Source: a virus. From it: DNA of 64,000 nt. The first letter of the stretch is position 1. Each line of letters opens with the position of its first letter. Of this stretch, positions 3,078-42,997 are shown piece by piece. A program made the translations under genes and the position numbers. The notes below the pieces were generated by a model. That model searched no databases, was not told where the DNA came from, and saw only the letters and a list, made by a program, of their open reading frames with translations. The DNA is taken from the IMG/VR virus record IMGVR_UViG_3300042382_000102, positions 1 to 64,000 of that record; one strand, 5' to 3'.

Positions 3078-3101
3078 TAATAATATCTTATAATAATATT
3101 A

Positions 3102-3140
3102 CCTAGGGAACGCCTAGGATCTCTCTTTAGCGTCCCCTGG
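3102..3140 (-). repeat. Inverted repeat overlapping promoter site 1
   Basis: On the minus strand CCAGGGGACGC can pair with GCGTTCCCTAGG, giving eleven pairs with one bulged A and one G-T pair, around a 16-base loop that contains the predicted start site. No clear T-run follows, so it does not look like a classical intrinsic terminator. It could be a cruciform, a terminator for upstream transcription, or a protective structure. Confidence 0.55.
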
Positions 3141-3141
3141 T
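3120..3141 (-). promoter_or_regulatory. T7-family phage promoter, site 1
   Basis: On the minus strand this reads ACCAGGGGACGCTAAAGAGA followed by GA. It is identical over the core to the sites near 25.1 kb and 43.0 kb. The CTAAAGAGAGA end matches the T3 promoter core (CTAAAGGGAGA) at 10 of 11 bases. By analogy transcription would start at the G at 3125, about 48 bases before the acetyltransferase-like gene, driving the fibre genes. It lies in the gap after the 2089-residue tail protein. Promoter role is inferred. Confidence 0.75.
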
Positions 3142-3164
3142 AAATGTAATAATTTTAACTCATT

Positions 3165-6100
3165 TTACCAACCTAAATTCAAATAAATTGTGCCACCAAT
3201 ACTACTAGAGGTAGCTCTTACATTTAATGTAGCAGCAGGTCCAGTAGCTTGATTTTGAATTAAACTTGTTGATTTTGTAGTATAGAATGCTGGAAAACTT
3301 AATGTTTCAAATGTATTCCAAGCACCTGTACTGTTAACTCTATACTCTACAAGTACAGGTATAGCTGATCCAGTATCATTATATCTACTAAGAGATACAT
3401 CTATCCAAAAATAACTTCCCCTAGGGATAGTTGTCATGCCAACAGTTGGATAACCAACTTGCATACTAGACAATGTTATTGGGGGTAATGGAGTAGTTGA
3501 AGTATCTGCAATAGCCCAAGATATAGCATTTCCAGCTTGAATTGTTCTAGCTGCATTTGTATACCAAGTTGCTGTAGCATTTTCTGTACCTTCTGTAAAT
3601 GAATCAGCTGTCATACTAAAGCTAAAGCTGCCGCTAGGTCCAGGAAAAGTTACTGAACCTTGTAATTGATTCTCAGATGTATCACCAGCCGTAACGTTAG
3701 TTCCACTTATAGTATAATATAAAGTAATTGGAAAAGAAGGAACATTGCTAAAACTCCAAAATACAGTTAAACCAGCACCTTCATTTACTGTGCTTGGCGA
3801 ACTAGAAAAACTATATGAGGGAGGACTTAAAGAAATGTCTCCAATATCCCAACTTAAACTGTTACCTGCAGATATAGTTCTGCTAGAATCTTTGAAAAAG
3901 CTAATAGTTGCTGTTTCTGGGCCATCTGTAAAACTATCTGGCGTCATTGTAAAACTAGGGGCTCCAGTGGATGCAAAGCTGCCAGTTAAAGAGCCTGATG
4001 TAATATCACTTGCTGAAATTCCAGATATACTATAATATAAGATAGCAACACCCTGTGAAGGGTTACTTGGAGTAGCATATATTTGAACACTACTGCCTTC
4101 ATTAATAGTCCCAAAAGGTGCTCTATCAAAAGTCCAAGTAGTTTGAGATGTATCATTAATAATAAGTGTTATCTTATTATCATTAGCAACAGGTCCAAAG
4201 TTTATTTGATTTTCTAATAATCTACTAGAAGAAGTGTAAAACCTAAAGGTTAAAGTTTCTGTACCTTCTGTTAATTGATCAGCAAGAGTATTAATATATG
4301 TATAATGATCTGCACTATCTAATATGATTTGGCCATCAATACCTCCAGAGATAGCGGTTGTAACTAAATCTGTATCTGAAGTAGTAACTCCAATTCCTGT
4401 AATTCTGTAATATATAGTCTTAGGGTAAGATGTAACATTAAAACTTCTTACTCTCAAGTATGTTAAACTACCTTCATTTTCAGTAGTGCTATAGGTAGTA
4501 GTATTGGGGTATACAGAAATTTCGTAACTTGGAGGACTTATGGAAGTGTCTTCAATAATCCAGCTAAGTGAATTGCCAATAGGTACTGTCCTTCCTGAAT
4601 CAGAGTAAAAGTTAATAGTAGCTGTTTCATTACCTTCTGTTGAAGTATCAGCGGCCATTGTTAATGTTGTTCCACTTGAGGAATTAAAACTTCCAGTTAA
4701 TGAGTTAGAAGTTAAGTCTGAGGCAAGTATTCCTGAAACAGAGTAGTACACTGTTATTGCTGGTGCCAGTGCATTGCTAGGGGTAGCACTAAATGATATA
4801 AAAGTATTACTTCCAGTTTCAGCAATTGAGCCTGTACTTGGATTCTTAGTGAAGGACCAAGTAGTTTTAGAAGTATCACTTATTGTTATAGATGCGGGTG
4901 TACCTAACTGTGTAGTAAAACCAGAGTCCAAATATAAAGTAACAGTTAATATTTCATTACCTTCGGTAAATTGATCAGCTGAAACATCTACTTTATAATA
5001 AGTGAAAGGTCCTGTGAGTGCTACTGGCCCTGATGTAGCAAAATTAGTATCTGCATTTGTAATACCAGTTCCAGTAAACTTGTAATATATTGTTACAGGG
5101 TAAGTAGGTATAAAACTACTATCTATACCAATATAAGTACTAGCGCCTTCATCTACAGTTCCAGGTGGAGTAAAGAAATAAACACTATAAACTGGAGCAC
5201 TAAAAGAGCTATCATTTACATCCCATGATAATGTATTGCCAATTTGTATAGTTCTACTAGAATTAGAATAGAATGTTATTCCTACTGTTTCTAAAGCTGG
5301 ATTTTCAGTAGTATTATCTGCAGCCATTGTTATAGTTAAACCACTTGTAGAAGTAAAACTACCTAACGTCCCAGCAGGACTAAAATCGCCATCTAAGATA
5401 TTAGTACCACTTAACCAATAGTAAATAGTAGTTGGAGCTTGTGCGGGATTACTTGGAGTAGCCGTGAATGAGATAGAATTATTAGTTGTCTCATTAAAGG
5501 AACCTGTAGCTGGAATTCTAGCAAATGTCCAAGTAGTTTTAGAAGCATCATTAAGTACAATTGATACTGAATTGCCAAGTTGAACTGTTCTATTTGAATC
5601 AGAATATAGGGAGAAGGTCAATGTTTCATTACCTTCAGTATATTGATCAGCAGTAGCATTAATATTAAAAGATACTGTTGGACCTGTCACAGATACTGAA
5701 CCTAATAAAGGATCAAAATCAGTATCATCAACTGTTATACCTGTACCAGATAGTCTATAATACGCTGTAAATGGGTAATTTAATACATTAGCACTATTTA
5801 TAGTAAAAGAGAAATCTGAACCCTCATCTATTGAAGTTTGGGATACAGATAACGAGTATGAAGGAGGAGTCTTGGAAGTATCTCCAATATCCCAACTTAG
5901 TAAATTACCAATAGGTATAGTCCTATTAGAGTCTGAATAAAAAGTAATTCCTGCTGTCTCTAAATTTTCAGTAGATAAGTCTTCTCTCATATTAAGAATA
6001 AGACCTGAATTACTATTAAAACTTCCTTCTAATGATGCAGAAACTACATCCCCAGAAGTAATTCCAGTTCCATTTAACCAATAATATATTGTTGTATTTG

Positions 6101-9100
6101 GAGCTAGAATATTACTAGGAGTAGCAGTAAAGGATATTGATTGGCCTTCATCAATAGTGCCACTTGAAGGGATTCTTGCAAATGTCCAAGTAGTCTTAGA
6201 AGCGTCTCCAATATTAAAAGTAATTTGATTTCCAATAGGAGTAGTGTAACCTGAATCAGAATAGAATGTAATTGTAACTGCTTCTGTACCTTCAGTAAGT
6301 TGATCTGACTGAATTAAAAATGAAATTGTTTCTAAAGCATCAGATATACTCCAAGAGCCTTGTAGTATACCTAAACTAAAATCTTCTGTTGTAATTCCAC
6401 TACCAATAATTTTATAGTATATAGTTGTTGGATAAACAGGAACATAAGTACTACTAGCTGTTACTGTTACAGATACCCCTTCATCTACAGTAGCTGTATT
6501 TGGATCTCTTGTGAATAACCAAGAGGGAGGTGGTGTCTTAGAAGTGTCTGCAATATCCCAAGTTACTGTATTACCAACTTGGCGAGTTAATTGTGTATCA
6601 TCATAGAAGGTTAGAGTAACTGTTTCTGGATTAGTTTCTGTAAATAAATCTGGAGCCATTGTAAGGCCGATACTTTGTCCAGTAGCAGTTATATTCCAAT
6701 TAAATATCGTAGAATTAGGAGGAGAGCTAAAGTCTGAATTTGTAATGTCAGTACCAGTCATTTTACCAAATATTAACTTTGGTAATACTGCATTTGTACT
6801 AATTGTGATTATTTGATTTGATCCCTCATCTACAGAAGCATAAGATCTAGAAAACACAAATTGAGGATCCCCCATTGACCAAGATATAGAATTACCAATA
6901 GGTATTGTTCTTCCTGAGTCTGAATACATATCAAAGAATACAACTTCTCCAAATATACCTTCATAAGTATAATCTTCTACACCAGTAAACTGTAAAGTAA
7001 CTGGAGTATTATCATAGAGTATTGTTTCAGTTAATAAAGTACCACTAATAAAATCAGCACTGGTTAAATTAGCATTTCCACCAGTTATCTCTCCATAAAC
7101 AGTATAAGGATAACTTAAATAATTAGGTGTTATAGTAAGTGTTTGAGTCTGACCTTCTACAACAAACCCCTCACTTCTAGATACGGAAATAGCATCTATA
7201 ATTTGCCATTCTAGTCCTGTAATAATATCAGTACCACTAGCATCTCTATAAAAAGTTATTTGAAAAGCTTCTGTACCCTCTGAAAAGTTATCTTCTTTTA
7301 TATCAAATAATACTTGTTGATCTGTAGATGTAATATTAAATGGAAAAACAGCATTAGTTAAGAAATTAGTATCAGAATCTGATGTACCATTTCCACTAGC
7401 AATTCTATAATATATAGTATAAGGATATGCAGGTACATTAGTACTTTGAACTCTAACAACTAGGCTAGTACCCTCTCTAACTAATGCAGTAGTAGGGTTA
7501 CCTGTTATTTTAGAAAAAGACCAATTAATTGGAGTTAATGAGGTATCTACTAGTGTTACATTAAACCCTAAATCTGCTAACCTAGTTCTTGGTATTGGCA
7601 TGTCCTTATCTAAGAATATTGTAAATGCTTCATTACCTTCTGTAGTTAAATCTGCTTTAAATTTAAGAGTAAATGATCCAGATCCATTTGTAGTAGTAAC
7701 GTAATAAGTATCACCTGAAACATAATTTACTCCATTGATTTGAGCGATATCATCTTCAGATGCACCTGTAATAGATGTTAATCCAATAATTGCTCTAGTA
7801 CCAGTTGGAGCTGCCGTAGTTACATTATATGTATATTCAATACCTTCGTTAATAGTACTTGGACCTGAGATAGACCAACTATACTCTAATGAAGTATCAT
7901 TAATTAACATATCAACAAATACAGAAGGATTATCATCAATAGATAATCGAAGTTTCTTTGGACCATCTACTCTAAAATCTAGTTTAGCATTAAATGTCCT
8001 TGAAGTGCTGGGTGGGTATACATTAGCAGGTAAAGTAAATCTGTTAGAGGTTACAGTCGCACCACTACCTAGCGTAACAAGAGATACCCAATCATTACTA
8101 TCGAAGTTTTGGTCTATAGCCCCTACTGCAGTTGGTATTTGTGTTAACGTATAATTTACTATTCTAGGTGAAGTTGAAGTTTCTAATGTGGTTAGAGTAA
8201 CTGTAAAAGACTCACCTTCATTTATACTACTTACATTTGGAGTAATTTTTAAATCATAAAAACTTGAATTTTTAAGACTAAAAGATTGTGGTATCCCAAC
8301 TAATGCAGTTCCACCTACAGAGGTGATAGTCATTGTTACTGTTTCAGTTTGTTCAAAAATACTATCAGATGCAGCATATATAAAAAAGCTTGCTGTATTA
8401 TTATTAACAACAAAAGTATTTGTTAACCCATCTCCAAAATCAGATGCAGTAACTCCAGTACCAGATAGAGTATATCTTAGTTGTCCACCAGTAGGGACAT
8501 TTGTTGTAGTTACATTACATTGTATAGGGCTAACATAACCTTCTTGAGTAATAGTTGGATTAAGAGTTAATACATAGCTAGCGGCAGGGAAACCACCACC
8601 ATTATAGCCAGGGTTGTAACTTAAAGCATTAGAAAATAACGGATTATGATCTATACTTGTTGGTAATATTTGTTTTACACTACTATATCTAGTAGAGTTA
8701 TTAAAAAACCTAGAACCTGTAAATGGTAAAGTACCTGTTTTATTCTCATCTAATATTTTTGGAAACCAAGAAGTTAAATAGCTTCCATTTTGATTGTAAA
8801 AACAAAGATATTTTTCTCTTTTAAAATTTGAACTATCAATATATGTTAACTTGTTAGTTTCTAGATTTGGTAAGAAATAACAAGCGTAGTCTGTTGGTGG
8901 CACGCTATTCTGCTGATTACCATTAGGCATTACATAATAATCAAAGAATTGTGAACTTGCAGGATCTATTTTAAGGTGAGACTTAGTTGTATCAAATACA
9001 CATTGATTAGAACTATTAAATAGTCTAGCTCCATAACCTAAACCAGCAGTTGTTATTTGTCCAAGACTAAAACAATATATTTCAGGTATATCTGAAGATA

Positions 9101-23722: not shown

Positions 23723-23789
23723 AAAATCTCCTTAAAAAAATGCCCTAAGATATATCACGAATAGTGTGATGCATCAAAGGGCAAAAAAA

Positions 23790-25050: not shown

Positions 25051-25080
25051 AATTATCCTTAATATATACTATAAATACAA

Positions 25081-25118
25081 CCAAGGGGAGCCTCAGATCT
25101 CTCTTTAGCGTCCCCTGG
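25081..25118 (-). repeat. Inverted repeat overlapping promoter site 2
   Basis: CCAGGGGA at the upstream end of the promoter can pair with TCCCCTTGG downstream of the predicted start (eight pairs with one bulged T, loop about 21 bases). The arrangement parallels site 1 although the downstream arm has a different sequence, suggesting conserved structure. Only weak T-rich sequence follows. Confidence 0.5.
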
Positions 25119-25119
25119 T
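25098..25119 (-). promoter_or_regulatory. T7-family phage promoter, site 2
   Basis: The minus strand carries the same 22 bases as site 1, core GGGGACGCTAAAGAGA. The predicted start is the G at 25103. It lies between the tail tube gene and the chaperone block, so it would drive the chaperones, tape measure and tip genes. Shared flanking ATTT upstream extends the match with site 1. Confidence 0.75.
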
Positions 25120-25149
25120 AAATGGACTAGAAACTAGCCCAAATTGTCA

Positions 25150-28852: not shown

Positions 28853-31800
28853 TTACGGTCCAATACCATACCAATCCATACCTTTAGGTATAGGAGCGAG
28901 TATCTCTTTTCTCGTAATCTTGTTTTTGGGATTTAGTAAGCCATCCTCAATAGCTTTTTGGCGAAGCTTATTGTAAGTCTCGTTAGACATACCTTCAGCT
29001 TTTAATGCCAGTAATGTTTTCTCTATTGTGTTACCTTCAAGAGCATCCGCATAGATTTCTCTAAGCGCATACTTGGACTTTGCTGCTTGTCCAATGTTGG
29101 TGAAGAAAGCATCATGAATCGTAGCGGTTTCAATACCATTTTTACGACCCCATAAATGAAATCTTCTTACAATAGTAGCATCGTTCATGTGGTTACCATT
29201 AACCCCCATGCCAATACCTGCCCTCATCAGGCTTGATTTTCCTAGAAGTGAAGCATCTTCTGCTCGATCTTCGTAAATGTTACGGACCATCCTATTAGCT
29301 TCTTTGTCATAGAACTCAATGCTAGTTTGGATTTTAGGTCTGTATCTCTGGTATAAAGTCTTACCATCAAATGTTACCCAAGGTACATCAACCTTCTGAG
29401 TTTCATCAACGTAAGCTTTAGCAGCTTCTTTCCAGAATTGTACGAACTTTTGAGTTACTGGTGCTCTCTCAGCTAGTCTTCGAGACATAATCTCAGAGAC
29501 TGCTTTGAAGTCTTGAGGTCCAATTAGACCCCTACGAGCATTCATTAACTTATCGACAAACGCTTCTACGTCTGGGTGAGAATCACGAGCATGTGCTAAA
29601 AGTTCTTGCCCCACAGGGGTTTCACCTTCAACAACCTCATTCAACTCACGCTTTAATTGTTTCAAACCAAAGACAACATTTTCAGCACCTAGCTTATCTG
29701 CCTCTTTGATTTTTCCATCTATAATATTTGTTACACCACGAAGTTCTTCACGAGTAACAACAGTATATCCTTTTAACTCTAATACTGAAGCAAATTTAGC
29801 CTCAATATTAGCCGCCTGTGTTGCTTTACCAGCACCATAGAAAGAAACCATGTTCTGAGCTTTAGCAGCTTTCTGGAGATCAGTCCATTGAACATTAGCA
29901 TCTCTTAACCCTTGTATCTTTTGAAACTCTGGATCAGACACTGTATCCATAGCAACTAAGTCATACAAACGATTCTTTTGGAGTGTAGGTAACACATTTG
30001 AGTTGATTGAAATGTCTCTATCGCCTGTACTCAAACCGATAATCTGAGCACCAGAGGATGAGGCATCATTCTCAATCATTAATTTTGTTTTGTATTCTGC
30101 TAATTTATTTACATTAGTAAAATCACCATTTACAGCTTTATGCGCACGAGCGTATTCTATTGCTAATCGACTAATCTTTGGAACTTCCTCTGCTTCAGTA
30201 GCACGGATAATAGGATGCTCTAGGTATTCCCTAATCCTTCTATCTCGTTGAGTAGTTTCCATCATTAACCTACCAAGGCTTAGAATTTCTTTTTCATTTC
30301 TTAAAAAGATTTCCATTCTACCAGATTGTGTTAAAGCTTCTGTAGCAGGTCCAAGCATAGACCCAGTTTGAATCATTAACTCTCGTAGAATCTCAGGAGT
30401 CATATCTTCAGGTTTTGCACTATTAAGAAATGGTCTAACCACTTCACCACCAGTTGGTGTTAGGAATCCTTGATAGTATACACGTCCACGACCATCAATA
30501 TTAGCGACAACACTAAAAGGTTTACCAGTATCTCTGTGATACTTAACCGTCTGCATAAAACTGTAACCTTGATCTCCACGAGTCAAAATAAGTTTTCTAA
30601 AATCATTTAAGTCATCGTACTTCTTTACGTTCCCACGGGGATCTCTAAAGCGAACTAAGTCTTCCATGAATCCAGCATACTCGTTATCAACCTCATATTG
30701 AACTGACATTGTATGATTAAGCATATCAGCAAAATCATTGTCAATAAGAATTTTATCGTAATTAGCATTAGCCCTGCGAGTAATAATCGGAATACCTGTA
30801 TTATTGCCTCTAGCATCAAAATAAGTCTTAGCTCCAGAACGAACATACAGCTTGTCTCTTGGAGAATTAATACCAATACGTTTTGCTAGCAATGCACTAC
30901 GATTAGCTCTCTGTAAGTTTAACATATCTTTGTTTAAGATCTGTACTTCACGACTAACTGTATCTCTCCAAGGACCACTTGCACGACCTGTTTCTAGGTC
31001 AACAACTGATCTCCTAGTCTTACCTCTCATGACCACACGAATGTAGCCTTTGTCTTTTAAGGCAGTAAGAATTTGGGAACCATCAGCATGATAGTCTTGT
31101 AATGTAGGTTTAAAGAACGGGAACTCTGGGACATTCCAAGATTCTCTCAATGTCTTTCCTACATTAATAGCTAATGAGTCATAGTCAGTAGACTTACCAT
31201 CAGCAACTACAGTTAAAACTTTAGATAGGGCATCAATAGCCTTCTTGTCGTTAAGACCACCCTCAACTAATTGATTTAAATAATTTTGTCTTTGTTTACC
31301 AAATAGAAACTCTAAGTCTACTATTCTTCGATAGTCTTCTCTTCTGTTTCTTAAAAATTCATCAACTAATCTTTCAGTAGGCGCTTTATCTTTAAAAAAT
31401 AGTTTAGCACCAGGAATATTATCCTCTAAGTATTTAACTATTTTCTTTTTAAAAACATCAATACCAATTCTAGGAGTACCTTTAAACCATGTGTATAGTG
31501 GAGTTCTTCCAGTATAATACAAGCTTCTGGCTAGAGGTCTACCTTCAGTAGTAGCCCAATTACGAACATATCTTTGATCATCTATATTCTTTTGAATGAT
31601 TTCATCAAAGGTATAATACTTACCAAATATTTGTACTTTAGCAGGTTCTCCAGCAACTCCATATGAGTCAAATTGTGATGATCGTGCTCTTGATCTACGA
31701 TCTAGAATACGACTAGTGTTAACTACAGAATACTGCATTTCACCACGGGCAACATTCATGAAGTTTACCCAAGGCTGTTTATCATTGTTATATCGTTCAA

Positions 31801-33271
31801 ATACAACACGCAAATTTTCAGCAATAGCAGTCTGTTGGTTAACAGAAACAGAATCATCTAGGCTTTCAACGAATTGTTGAATCCAAACTTTTTGTTCTTG
31901 GTTTAGAGCCTTAGAGTTTTTAATAAAGTCTAATCGTTCCTGTAATACACCAAAGTCTGGGTCATACAAAAGAGTAGAACTCTGTTCACCTGTAAAGGGA
32001 TCAAAGCTATTATTACGTTCATCAAACTCGTTATTAGCCCTAATCCTAACTGATCGTTTACCTTGTAATGAGGTACCACGATAGTCTACTAGAGATAGTG
32101 TTTGTGCAGTATTTTCAGTGTCCGCTATATACATTGCCTTTAATTGTTTATTGGCCTCTGTATTTTTAATAAGTTCATTAGGTCTAGCTACATTAACAGC
32201 AAATAAATTAGATTCAGCTTCTGCTACTGCGGCTTGCCTAGTTGGAAAGAATGTTGTTCTTGCATTATCAAGTTTTCTTAATGCTGCAATACTTAATTGT
32301 TGACCCTTAGCGGTAGTAAATGCTTTAACGTCAAGAACACCTTTTTGTAGTAATCCTGCACGTTCTTCACTACCTAAATGTTTAACTTGTACCATCATAG
32401 GCTGACGCTTAAGCCATGTACCATAAGTTTCTACTGGGGGTAAGCTACCATCTAAAATATTCTCAGATGTTTCCTTAAGTTTATTTACTTTAACTCTTGA
32501 TTCAGCTTCCTCAGAAGCTTTTAATAGTTCTTCTTTGTTCTTTAAAACAGGAACCATAGAACTACGGCAATTCCAGTGTAAGGGAGGTCTAAAACGAAGA
32601 TCATCAATCTTATATACTTGACCATCATGGTGAGCACAGATCTTTGATGTTCTATTATCTAACACAGCAGTAAATCTATAACCTTTTAGTAATTCGTTAT
32701 TACGATCCATTACTAGATTAATTGCTTTAGCTTGCGTATTCGTAATAGCAGTTCTAACTAATACCTTAGCTTGCACTTCAGTCATAGTTGTAGTCTTAAT
32801 TACATCAGCAATAATTTCTTTAACAGGTTTATTGTCTGCTAATCCTGACTTAATTTTTCCATCAATCCTAGCTAACTCAGTTGTACCAATACTGTCAAAG
32901 TGATCTTTTAAACTCTTTGAGGCAGTAATATTAGGTCCAATCAGGAGAGGAATAGCATCACTACCTCTAGGTTTTTGTACCCTAAAGAAAGATCCAGCAC
33001 TTCTCTCTAGATTATTAGCATGGAAGCTTACAGAGGCATCTGCATAATCACTAACTGAATTTTTAGTAATCATGTGTAACTCTTTAGTTGCTCGAGTTAC
33101 TTCTGGTTTAACATCAGCCTTAATATTTTTAGATAATAAAATCTTTAATCTTTTCTGATGCCTACGGATGCCTCTAGAAACATTGGTTGATGTCTCTGCT
33201 TCATATAGCCTAGTGTCAGCTAAGTGTTGTACAATACGATCATAAACTTCCGTATTAATTGGTGTTGGCAT
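28853..33271 (-). CDS. Minor head protein (Mu gpF-like) fused to T7-family single-subunit RNA polymerase
   Basis: One uninterrupted 1472-residue frame. The N-terminal part ends in the signature of phage Mu gpF-like head morphogenesis proteins: YRFTAVLDNRTSKICAHHDG (198-217), then RPPLHWNCRSSMVP (228-241). The C-terminal half carries RNA polymerase motifs in the T7 order: DGRGRVY at 926-932, motif A with Asp1069 (NDASSSGAQ), motif B K(x7)YG at Lys1137-Tyr1145-Gly1146, and motif C IHDAF with His1386-Asp1387. These match T7 Asp537, Lys631, Tyr639 and Asp812; the A-to-C spacing is 318 against 275. Residues 270-900 are unassigned and may include the polymerase N-terminal domain. It occupies the normal gpF slot between portal and scaffold, so it is probably packaged in the head and injected. 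Catalytic residues look intact; activity is inferred. Confidence 0.9.
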   Translation of the reverse strand: MPTPINTEVYDRIVQHLADTRLYEAETSTNVSRGIRRHQKRLKILLSKNIKADVKPEVTRATKELHMITKNSVSDYADASVSFHANNLERSAGSFFRVQKPRGSDAIPLLIGPNITASKSLKDHFDSIGTTELARIDGKIKSGLADNKPVKEIIADVIKTTTMTEVQAKVLVRTAITNTQAKAINLVMDRNNELLKGYRFTAVLDNRTSKICAHHDGQVYKIDDLRFRPPLHWNCRSSMVPVLKNKEELLKASEEAESRVKVNKLKETSENILDGSLPPVETYGTWLKRQPMMVQVKHLGSEERAGLLQKGVLDVKAFTTAKGQQLSIAALRKLDNARTTFFPTRQAAVAEAESNLFAVNVARPNELIKNTEANKQLKAMYIADTENTAQTLSLVDYRGTSLQGKRSVRIRANNEFDERNNSFDPFTGEQSSTLLYDPDFGVLQERLDFIKNSKALNQEQKVWIQQFVESLDDSVSVNQQTAIAENLRVVFERYNNDKQPWVNFMNVARGEMQYSVVNTSRILDRRSRARSSQFDSYGVAGEPAKVQIFGKYYTFDEIIQKNIDDQRYVRNWATTEGRPLARSLYYTGRTPLYTWFKGTPRIGIDVFKKKIVKYLEDNIPGAKLFFKDKAPTERLVDEFLRNRREDYRRIVDLEFLFGKQRQNYLNQLVEGGLNDKKAIDALSKVLTVVADGKSTDYDSLAINVGKTLRESWNVPEFPFFKPTLQDYHADGSQILTALKDKGYIRVVMRGKTRRSVVDLETGRASGPWRDTVSREVQILNKDMLNLQRANRSALLAKRIGINSPRDKLYVRSGAKTYFDARGNNTGIPIITRRANANYDKILIDNDFADMLNHTMSVQYEVDNEYAGFMEDLVRFRDPRGNVKKYDDLNDFRKLILTRGDQGYSFMQTVKYHRDTGKPFSVVANIDGRGRVYYQGFLTPTGGEVVRPFLNSAKPEDMTPEILRELMIQTGSMLGPATEALTQSGRMEIFLRNEKEILSLGRLMMETTQRDRRIREYLEHPIIRATEAEEVPKISRLAIEYARAHKAVNGDFTNVNKLAEYKTKLMIENDASSSGAQIIGLSTGDRDISINSNVLPTLQKNRLYDLVAMDTVSDPEFQKIQGLRDANVQWTDLQKAAKAQNMVSFYGAGKATQAANIEAKFASVLELKGYTVVTREELRGVTNIIDGKIKEADKLGAENVVFGLKQLKRELNEVVEGETPVGQELLAHARDSHPDVEAFVDKLMNARRGLIGPQDFKAVSEIMSRRLAERAPVTQKFVQFWKEAAKAYVDETQKVDVPWVTFDGKTLYQRYRPKIQTSIEFYDKEANRMVRNIYEDRAEDASLLGKSSLMRAGIGMGVNGNHMNDATIVRRFHLWGRKNGIETATIHDAFFTNIGQAAKSKYALREIYADALEGNTIEKTLLALKAEGMSNETYNKLRQKAIEDGLLNPKNKITRKEILAPIPKGMDWYGIGP

Positions 33272-42368: not shown

Positions 42369-42390
42369 TCTCTCTTTAGCGTCACCTGGT
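42369..42390 (-). promoter_or_regulatory. T7-family phage promoter, site 3
   Basis: The minus strand reads ACCAGGTGACGCTAAAGAGA. It differs from the other sites by one base (GGTGAC for GGGGAC), and that change makes it even closer to the SP6 promoter: AGGTGACGCTAAAGAG against AGGTGACACTATAGAA, 13 of 16 identical. Predicted start at 42374. It lies immediately after a terminator and ahead of the packaging and lysis block. Confidence 0.8.
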
Positions 42391-42400
42391 CTTTTTTGAC

Positions 42401-42477
42401 AAAAAAAAAAAGAATTACCCCTCCAGAGTACCCTCTAACCACCCCCGAAGGAGCAGCTAAAGAGTACCCTGGAGGGG
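42401..42477 (-). terminator. Strong intrinsic terminator after the SleB-type gene
   Basis: On the minus strand CCCCTCCAG (from 42477) pairs perfectly with CTGGAGGGG (to 42418). The inner sequence extends the stem through GTAC/GTAC and TCT/AGA to CTGCTCC-TTCG-GGGGTGG, ending in a TTCG tetraloop. TAATTC and a run of eleven to twelve T residues follow. This is a textbook rho-independent terminator. It would insulate the packaging operon, which starts at promoter site 3 only a few bases later. Confidence 0.88.
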
Positions 42478-42490
42478 ATCTTTTGGCTAA

Positions 42491-42975: not shown

Positions 42976-42997
42976 TTTCTCTTTAGCGTCCCCTGGT
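42976..42997 (-). promoter_or_regulatory. T7-family phage promoter, site 4
   Basis: The minus strand reads ACCAGGGGACGCTAAAGAGA then AA. Identical core to sites 1 and 2 but without a matching inverted repeat downstream, which shows that the hairpin is not an obligatory part. Predicted start 42981. It is the first such site met when reading from the replication region. Confidence 0.78.

Follow-up and report, generated by a model that had tools for sequence, protein, structure and literature searches.

RNA stem-loops that overlap promoters are known, and the hairpin described here, which covaries and is conserved at two of four promoters, differs from those of T7 in its register. In phage T7, the phi/R pairs place RNase III stem-loops next to late promoters, for example phi3.8/R3.8 and phi13/R13. 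Processing of the middle and late T7 messages by host RNase III is described in PMC4858673. The locus analyzed here resembles this arrangement in that a predicted promoter of a single-subunit polymerase is overlapped by a stable stem-loop between late cistrons, but in T7 the arm consists of the first transcribed bases, whereas here it is the recognition half of the promoter and the predicted start lies in the loop. T7 promoters do not pair this same half: when positions -20 to -5 were tested as they are below, the 17 annotated T7 promoters gave -1.7 to -8.4 kcal/mol and none reached p<0.05. The strong stems of T7 start close to +1, so that the initial bases of the transcript are part of them.

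A further comparison is offered by phage N4, whose short promoter hairpin is needed for recognition by the virion polymerase, lies upstream of the start with its center at -11, and is read on the template strand, as set out in PMC4496689. The likeness is that a phage encoding a putative virion polymerase has an inverted repeat at a predicted promoter. The N4 hairpin lies upstream, however, while the hairpin here extends from -18 to +27 and encloses the start in its loop. A hairpin of the N4 kind would be expected at every promoter of the class, whereas here two of four sites have one and the core motif stands without it.

The phages DSS3_VP1 and DSS3_PM1 (Naomviridae), reported in PMC12697855 to carry deoxyuridine DNA, encode a homologue of the polymerase fusion described below, have a second RNA polymerase annotated, and carry promoter-like ATAGG...CGTTAAAGA motifs, some of them stemmed. 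Their promoter sequence is different and their upstream half pairs more weakly (p 0.04-0.07); in most of their promoter-like motifs (L077/L078), a strong stem is instead formed by the bases transcribed first.

Four predicted late promoters and two polymerases

The window, meaning the whole stretch of DNA analyzed here, comprises the first 64,000 of the 80,335 bases in phage record IMGVR_UViG_3300042382_000102. With up to three mismatches allowed, the record contains four copies of a 19-base promoter core, all of them on the minus strand and in intergenic DNA preceding genes. Sites 1 to 4 are called promoters here from the repetition of this motif, which, as in T7/SP6-type single-subunit polymerase promoters, spans about 20 bases and ends in the start region, and from what we take to be a resemblance to the SP6, T3, and T7 promoters; their starts are predicted. 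The four sites, and the polymerase gene within the window, are as follows.

3122 to 3140, minus strand: site 1 promoter core CCAGGGGACGCTAAAGAGA, predicted +1 at 3125 (the G of TAAAG)
25100 to 25118, minus strand: site 2 promoter core, predicted +1 at 25103 (motif scan of the record)
28853 to 33271, minus strand: putative virion polymerase of 1472 aa, in which a MuF head protein is joined to a single-subunit RNA polymerase domain (profile, PDB, and PHROG matches)
42371 to 42389, minus strand: site 3 promoter core, CCAGGTGACGC variant, without hairpin, predicted +1 at 42374
42978 to 42996, minus strand: site 4 promoter core, without hairpin, predicted +1 at 42981, preceding an endolysin gene (PHROG)

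Site 1 comes after the stop codon of a 2089-aa open reading frame and site 2 after the major tail protein gene; all four sites lie upstream of structural and lysis genes, not early genes. In an Rfam scan of the 64,000-base window, the gathering score was reached by tRNA only, and among the matches listed in searches of open-licence PMC papers, none dealt with the promoters of these phages. Dense degenerate repeats occupy large structural open reading frames at 1-1800 and 3500-7600, with a 21-base periodicity and units of about 330 bases.

Two candidate readers of these promoters are encoded. The MuF-polymerase fusion matches PF04233 (E 9.6e-11) and PF00940 (E 4.8e-7), has a PDB polymerase match at E 4.2e-5, and is 48.8% identical over its full length to its DSS3_VP1/DSS3_PM1 homologue. 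It is a candidate virion polymerase delivered with a head protein. In the DSS3 phages, the homologue is annotated as a minor head protein or as head morphogenesis; in EBPR siphovirus 1 (L079, 20040-25413), the match is split over gp47 and gp49 with the annotated HNH endonuclease gp48 between them, which looks like an interruption by a mobile element. A 722-aa open reading frame at 65968-68136 of the record, outside the window (L134), has T7 RNA polymerase as its best PDB match (E 8.7e-63), so that a T7-type polymerase is present in a genome with predicted T7/SP6-type promoters. It is most likely this polymerase, as the more natural reader of such promoters, and not the fusion that transcribes from sites 1 to 4.

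Pairing at sites 1 and 2

The preliminary description had noted an 11-pair inverted repeat at site 1, in which the upstream half of the promoter can pair with sequence downstream of the predicted start and the initiation region lies in the loop. Both points hold on the minus strand. There, CCAGGGGACGC at 3140-3130 pairs with GCGTTCCCTAGG at 3113-3102, the count of 11 pairs including one G.U (G.T in DNA) and the stem containing one bulged base, 3104. The hairpins considered here are listed below.

3129 to 3143, minus strand: 5' arm of the site 1 hairpin, -18 to -4 (RNA fold and DNA fold)
3099 to 3114, minus strand: 3' arm of the site 1 hairpin, +12 to +27, with base 3104 bulged and a GU opposite a promoter G
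25080 to 25119, minus strand: site 2 hairpin, with 5' arm 25119-25107 and 3' arm 25092-25080 (RNA and DNA folds)
25123 to 25141, minus strand: small hairpin GGGCTAG/CTAGTCC, then ATTT, directly upstream of site 2 (comparison with relatives)

At site 1, the stem is lengthened outwards by TTA/TAA and inwards by a U.G to a total of 15 pairs (3143-3129 with 3114-3099). Without the inner U.G, 3143-3130 (-18 to -5) is paired with 3113-3099 and a 16-base loop is left between the arms, within which a GA/UC step closes a GAGA loop around the predicted start in the RNA fold and in the DNA fold of both strands. The 50-base RNA fold reaches -23.2 kcal/mol (z -5.08), and none of 200 shuffles was as good. 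When the arm from -20 to -5 was tested against downstream sequence, the duplex gave -21.7 kcal/mol, and the p values of three runs were 0.004, 0.003, and 0.001. As DNA, both strands can fold, at -10.3 and -8.7 kcal/mol. The paired stretch from -18 to -5 is that contacted upstream by T7-type polymerases, for which PMC4496689 gives -17 to -5.

Site 2 is weaker alone than site 1, its arm giving -15.8 kcal/mol against downstream sequence with p of 0.046, 0.050, and 0.068/0.048 in repeat runs. No pairing with downstream sequence is seen at site 3 (-5.5 kcal/mol, p 0.61; fold z +0.79) or at site 4 (-4.2 kcal/mol, p 0.56; fold z +1.85).

Conservation and compensating changes among relatives

The exact core was found in 72 stretches of viral contigs, and a search by the polymerase fusion added 51 further loci, some of them on the same contigs, at identities down to 48%. 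Promoters were assigned to sites by tblastn of the window's flanking genes, with the arms not used. This gave 59 unique 80-base rows: 7 for site 1, 20 for site 2, 18 for site 3, 9 for site 4, and 5 unassigned. The window's promoter type reads GACGC; the other type, referred to here as group B, reads GACGT.

Among variants with the window's promoter type, the hairpin is present in all 7 unique site 1 variants, so that the arms at site 1 are conserved in relatives, and in all 15 unique site 2 variants, with duplex energies of -15.8 to -24.9 kcal/mol; p<0.05 is reached in 7/7 and 14/15 rows, respectively, many variants being closely related, such that these counts are not independent events. It is found in none of the 21 unique site 3 and site 4 variants of this type (0/12 and 0/9), where energies run from about -3.4 to -13.5 kcal/mol with none at p<0.05 (strongest, L065, at -13.5 and p 0.30), and the core motif persists there without it. 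The site 4 variant L032 gives -14.2 kcal/mol and p 0.014 with downstream sequence taken to +54, and -9.5 kcal/mol and p 0.21 with +49. Three of the five unassigned rows pair (L021, L039, and L058) and the other two, both from L167 with unclassified context, do not. The arms are kept across variants even though the loop between them measures anywhere from 16 to 22 bases.

Within group B, pairing at p<0.05 is seen in 0/5 site 2 rows and 1/6 site 3 rows, the latter (L104/L122) at -16.5 kcal/mol and p 0.033. The group-B site 2 variants L106, L157, L169, and L170 leave the upstream half unpaired and have the promoter stemmed through its initiation half; the T7-like register is seen only in these four relatives and in several DSS3 motifs. 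From these initiation-half stems, it seems that a stem in the RNA matters more than any one register. A second strong hairpin of about 12 pairs (AGGGGTA.../...TACCCCT) follows the site 2 promoter in these four and in L164. No convincing motif was found in EBPR siphovirus 1 with up to 6 of 20 mismatches allowed, nor was a convincing promoter motif found in L105, L114, or L118 within the part of each genome examined. In the scan for the DSS3-type pattern, many contigs look like chance matches, and five of the stretches come from IMGVR_UViG_2974727065 and share DSS3_VP1 sequence.

As the first arm is fixed by the core pattern in these conservation counts, site 2 places with a changed promoter were sought via the flanking genes, and two were found in close relatives. 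In L091, GACGC has become GACAT and the far arm is changed too (-6 from G-C to A-U, -5 from C-G to U.G), leaving a stem of 20 pairs with z -6.3 and a duplex p of 0.022. In L093, an A of the first arm is replaced by a G, now opposite U (duplex p 0.025). DSS3_VP1 and DSS3_PM1 show a paired A-U to G-C exchange at one promoter, with arms GTACG/CGTAC in the former and GTGCG/CGCAC in the latter; it accounts for two of the five differences in the surrounding 71 bases, and taken by themselves the pairings are weak, with p of 0.052 and 0.068 and fold z of -1.3 and -2.2. The comparison of arms for compensatory changes that the preliminary description had proposed thus finds them in L091 and between the two DSS3 phages. 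Position-specific conservation together with these compensating changes indicates that the hairpin is probably under selection at sites 1 and 2.

The energies do not separate RNA from DNA. Sense and template duplexes average -18.9 and -19.3 kcal/mol, the sense strand being stronger in 3 of 20 variants, and we dropped this comparison as an argument for RNA in view of the lack of overall difference. One-sided substitutions in the core stem (window type, L020, L074, and L093) all give G.U on the transcribed strand, and among the few cases, no reverse change giving G.U on the template strand was seen. Because the two strands fold about equally, the strand argument rests on these few G.U pairs.

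Readings of the hairpin

The reading that we favor, and in which we place about even confidence, is that the hairpin is an RNA processing site, possibly for RNase III, and/or a stem-loop protecting a 3' end on read-through message. Sites 1 to 4 would be late promoters of the T7/SP6 kind, and polymerases from upstream promoters would read through the ends of long late genes into sites 1 and 2. In the read-through RNA, the promoter would supply the 5' arm and loop, with the 3' arm falling within bases 1 to 27 of the transcript that follows. A transcript initiated at the promoter would start in the loop without the 5' arm and would be unable to fold the stem-loop. As the predicted start lies in the loop, only read-through RNA could fold the hairpin, and the element could tell read-through from promoter-begun RNA because the latter would start inside the loop. 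On the read-through message, the stem-loop could then act as a cleavage site for an RNase III-like endonuclease and/or as a barrier shielding the 3' end of the upstream message. Against this reading, the window's stem is short: a classical RNase III site has a longer stem than the continuous 15 pairs and short inner step found here.

A hairpin that is purely protective, insulating the upstream message from exonucleases and never itself cut, would account for the same comparative conservation and for the position of the stems directly 3' of the stop codons of the 2089-aa open reading frame and the major tail protein gene. The 3' end must be made first, however, and no T-run follows, and we consider such a barrier-only role unlikely.

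There is likewise only a small chance that the hairpin is a non-canonical terminator or pause site for the phage polymerase reading through, with restart at the nested promoter. This would be in keeping with a terminator-promoter tandem at site 3, where the sequence contains the following feature.

42401 to 42478, minus strand: intrinsic terminator directly preceding site 3, made up of a long GC-rich hairpin with T11 after it

A run of T10 to T15 precedes site 3 in 11/12 window-type variants. It would also fit the small compensated hairpin that lies directly upstream of site 2 in most window-type variants and is followed by T4-5 (ATTT in the window's type); weak termination may occur there, before the promoter hairpin. 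In relatives, the stems of this small hairpin are exchanged yet paired (GGGGA/TCCCC, GGAGG/CCTCC, and GGGAG/CTCCC), with T3-5 following in a terminator-like manner. The promoter hairpin itself has no such tail: up to +70, the longest T-run is 2 in the nine site 1 rows and 2-4 in the 22 site 2 rows, whereas terminators in the same genomes use runs of 7 to 15 T residues. An intrinsic terminator, with a GC-rich stem and T-run, was rejected for sites 1 and 2 for lack of the T-run. Two runs of seven T residues at 23734-23789 (minus strand), each after a hairpin-like stretch, are located in the interval from the tail chaperone region to the tape measure gene and are likely terminators. A tidy rule of either hairpin or terminator is not clean, as the group-B site 3 promoter L104/L122 combines a T10-12 run upstream with pairing, and a T-run likewise precedes the DSS3 promoter that carries the compensating change.

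The preliminary description had drawn an analogy with the promoter hairpins of the N4 virion polymerase, and an extruded DNA hairpin could be imagined as the promoter form recognized by the MuF-fused polymerase, as a putative virion polymerase is encoded and both DNA strands fold. This is very unlikely and was rejected on geometry, the loop holding the start in contrast to the N4 hairpins described in PMC4496689, and on the absence of the hairpin from sites 3 and 4, where the same core stands without it in all 21 variants of the window's promoter type. In addition, the promoters precede structural and lysis genes rather than early ones.

That the dyad serves as an operator bound by a protein, or is what remains of an antisense promoter, is highly improbable. 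When read on the plus strand, the 3' arm does resemble the upstream half of the promoter, but the spacer varies from 16 to 22 bases, which suits a stem-loop with persistent arms better than a dimer-binding site, and pairing is kept through G.U and compensating changes; an antisense promoter was rejected, the plus-strand copy in the window being without TAAAG. Least probable is chance complementarity kept by relatedness alone, which the borderline p of about 0.05 at site 2 alone and the many close relatives might suggest, but which is at odds with the presence of the hairpin at two separate genome positions, with the divergence of the flanks, and with the differing loop lengths and compensating changes.

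Returning to processing or protection of read-through message, a further and more speculative step, possible but on balance doubtful, would be a self-marking late promoter, the recognition half of which doubles as an RNA hairpin arm and marks RNA copied through it for processing, with the mark kept only at internal read-through promoters and terminators used elsewhere. The present comparison removes the tempting link of the hairpin to an N4-like virion-polymerase mechanism, a link that is probably wrong. If the favored reading is true, one short stretch would serve as a DNA recognition site and as an RNA structure, under both constraints simultaneously, and read-through and primary transcripts would be separated without a terminator. 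This would also reveal how long late regions are punctuated in phages that rely on single-subunit polymerases.
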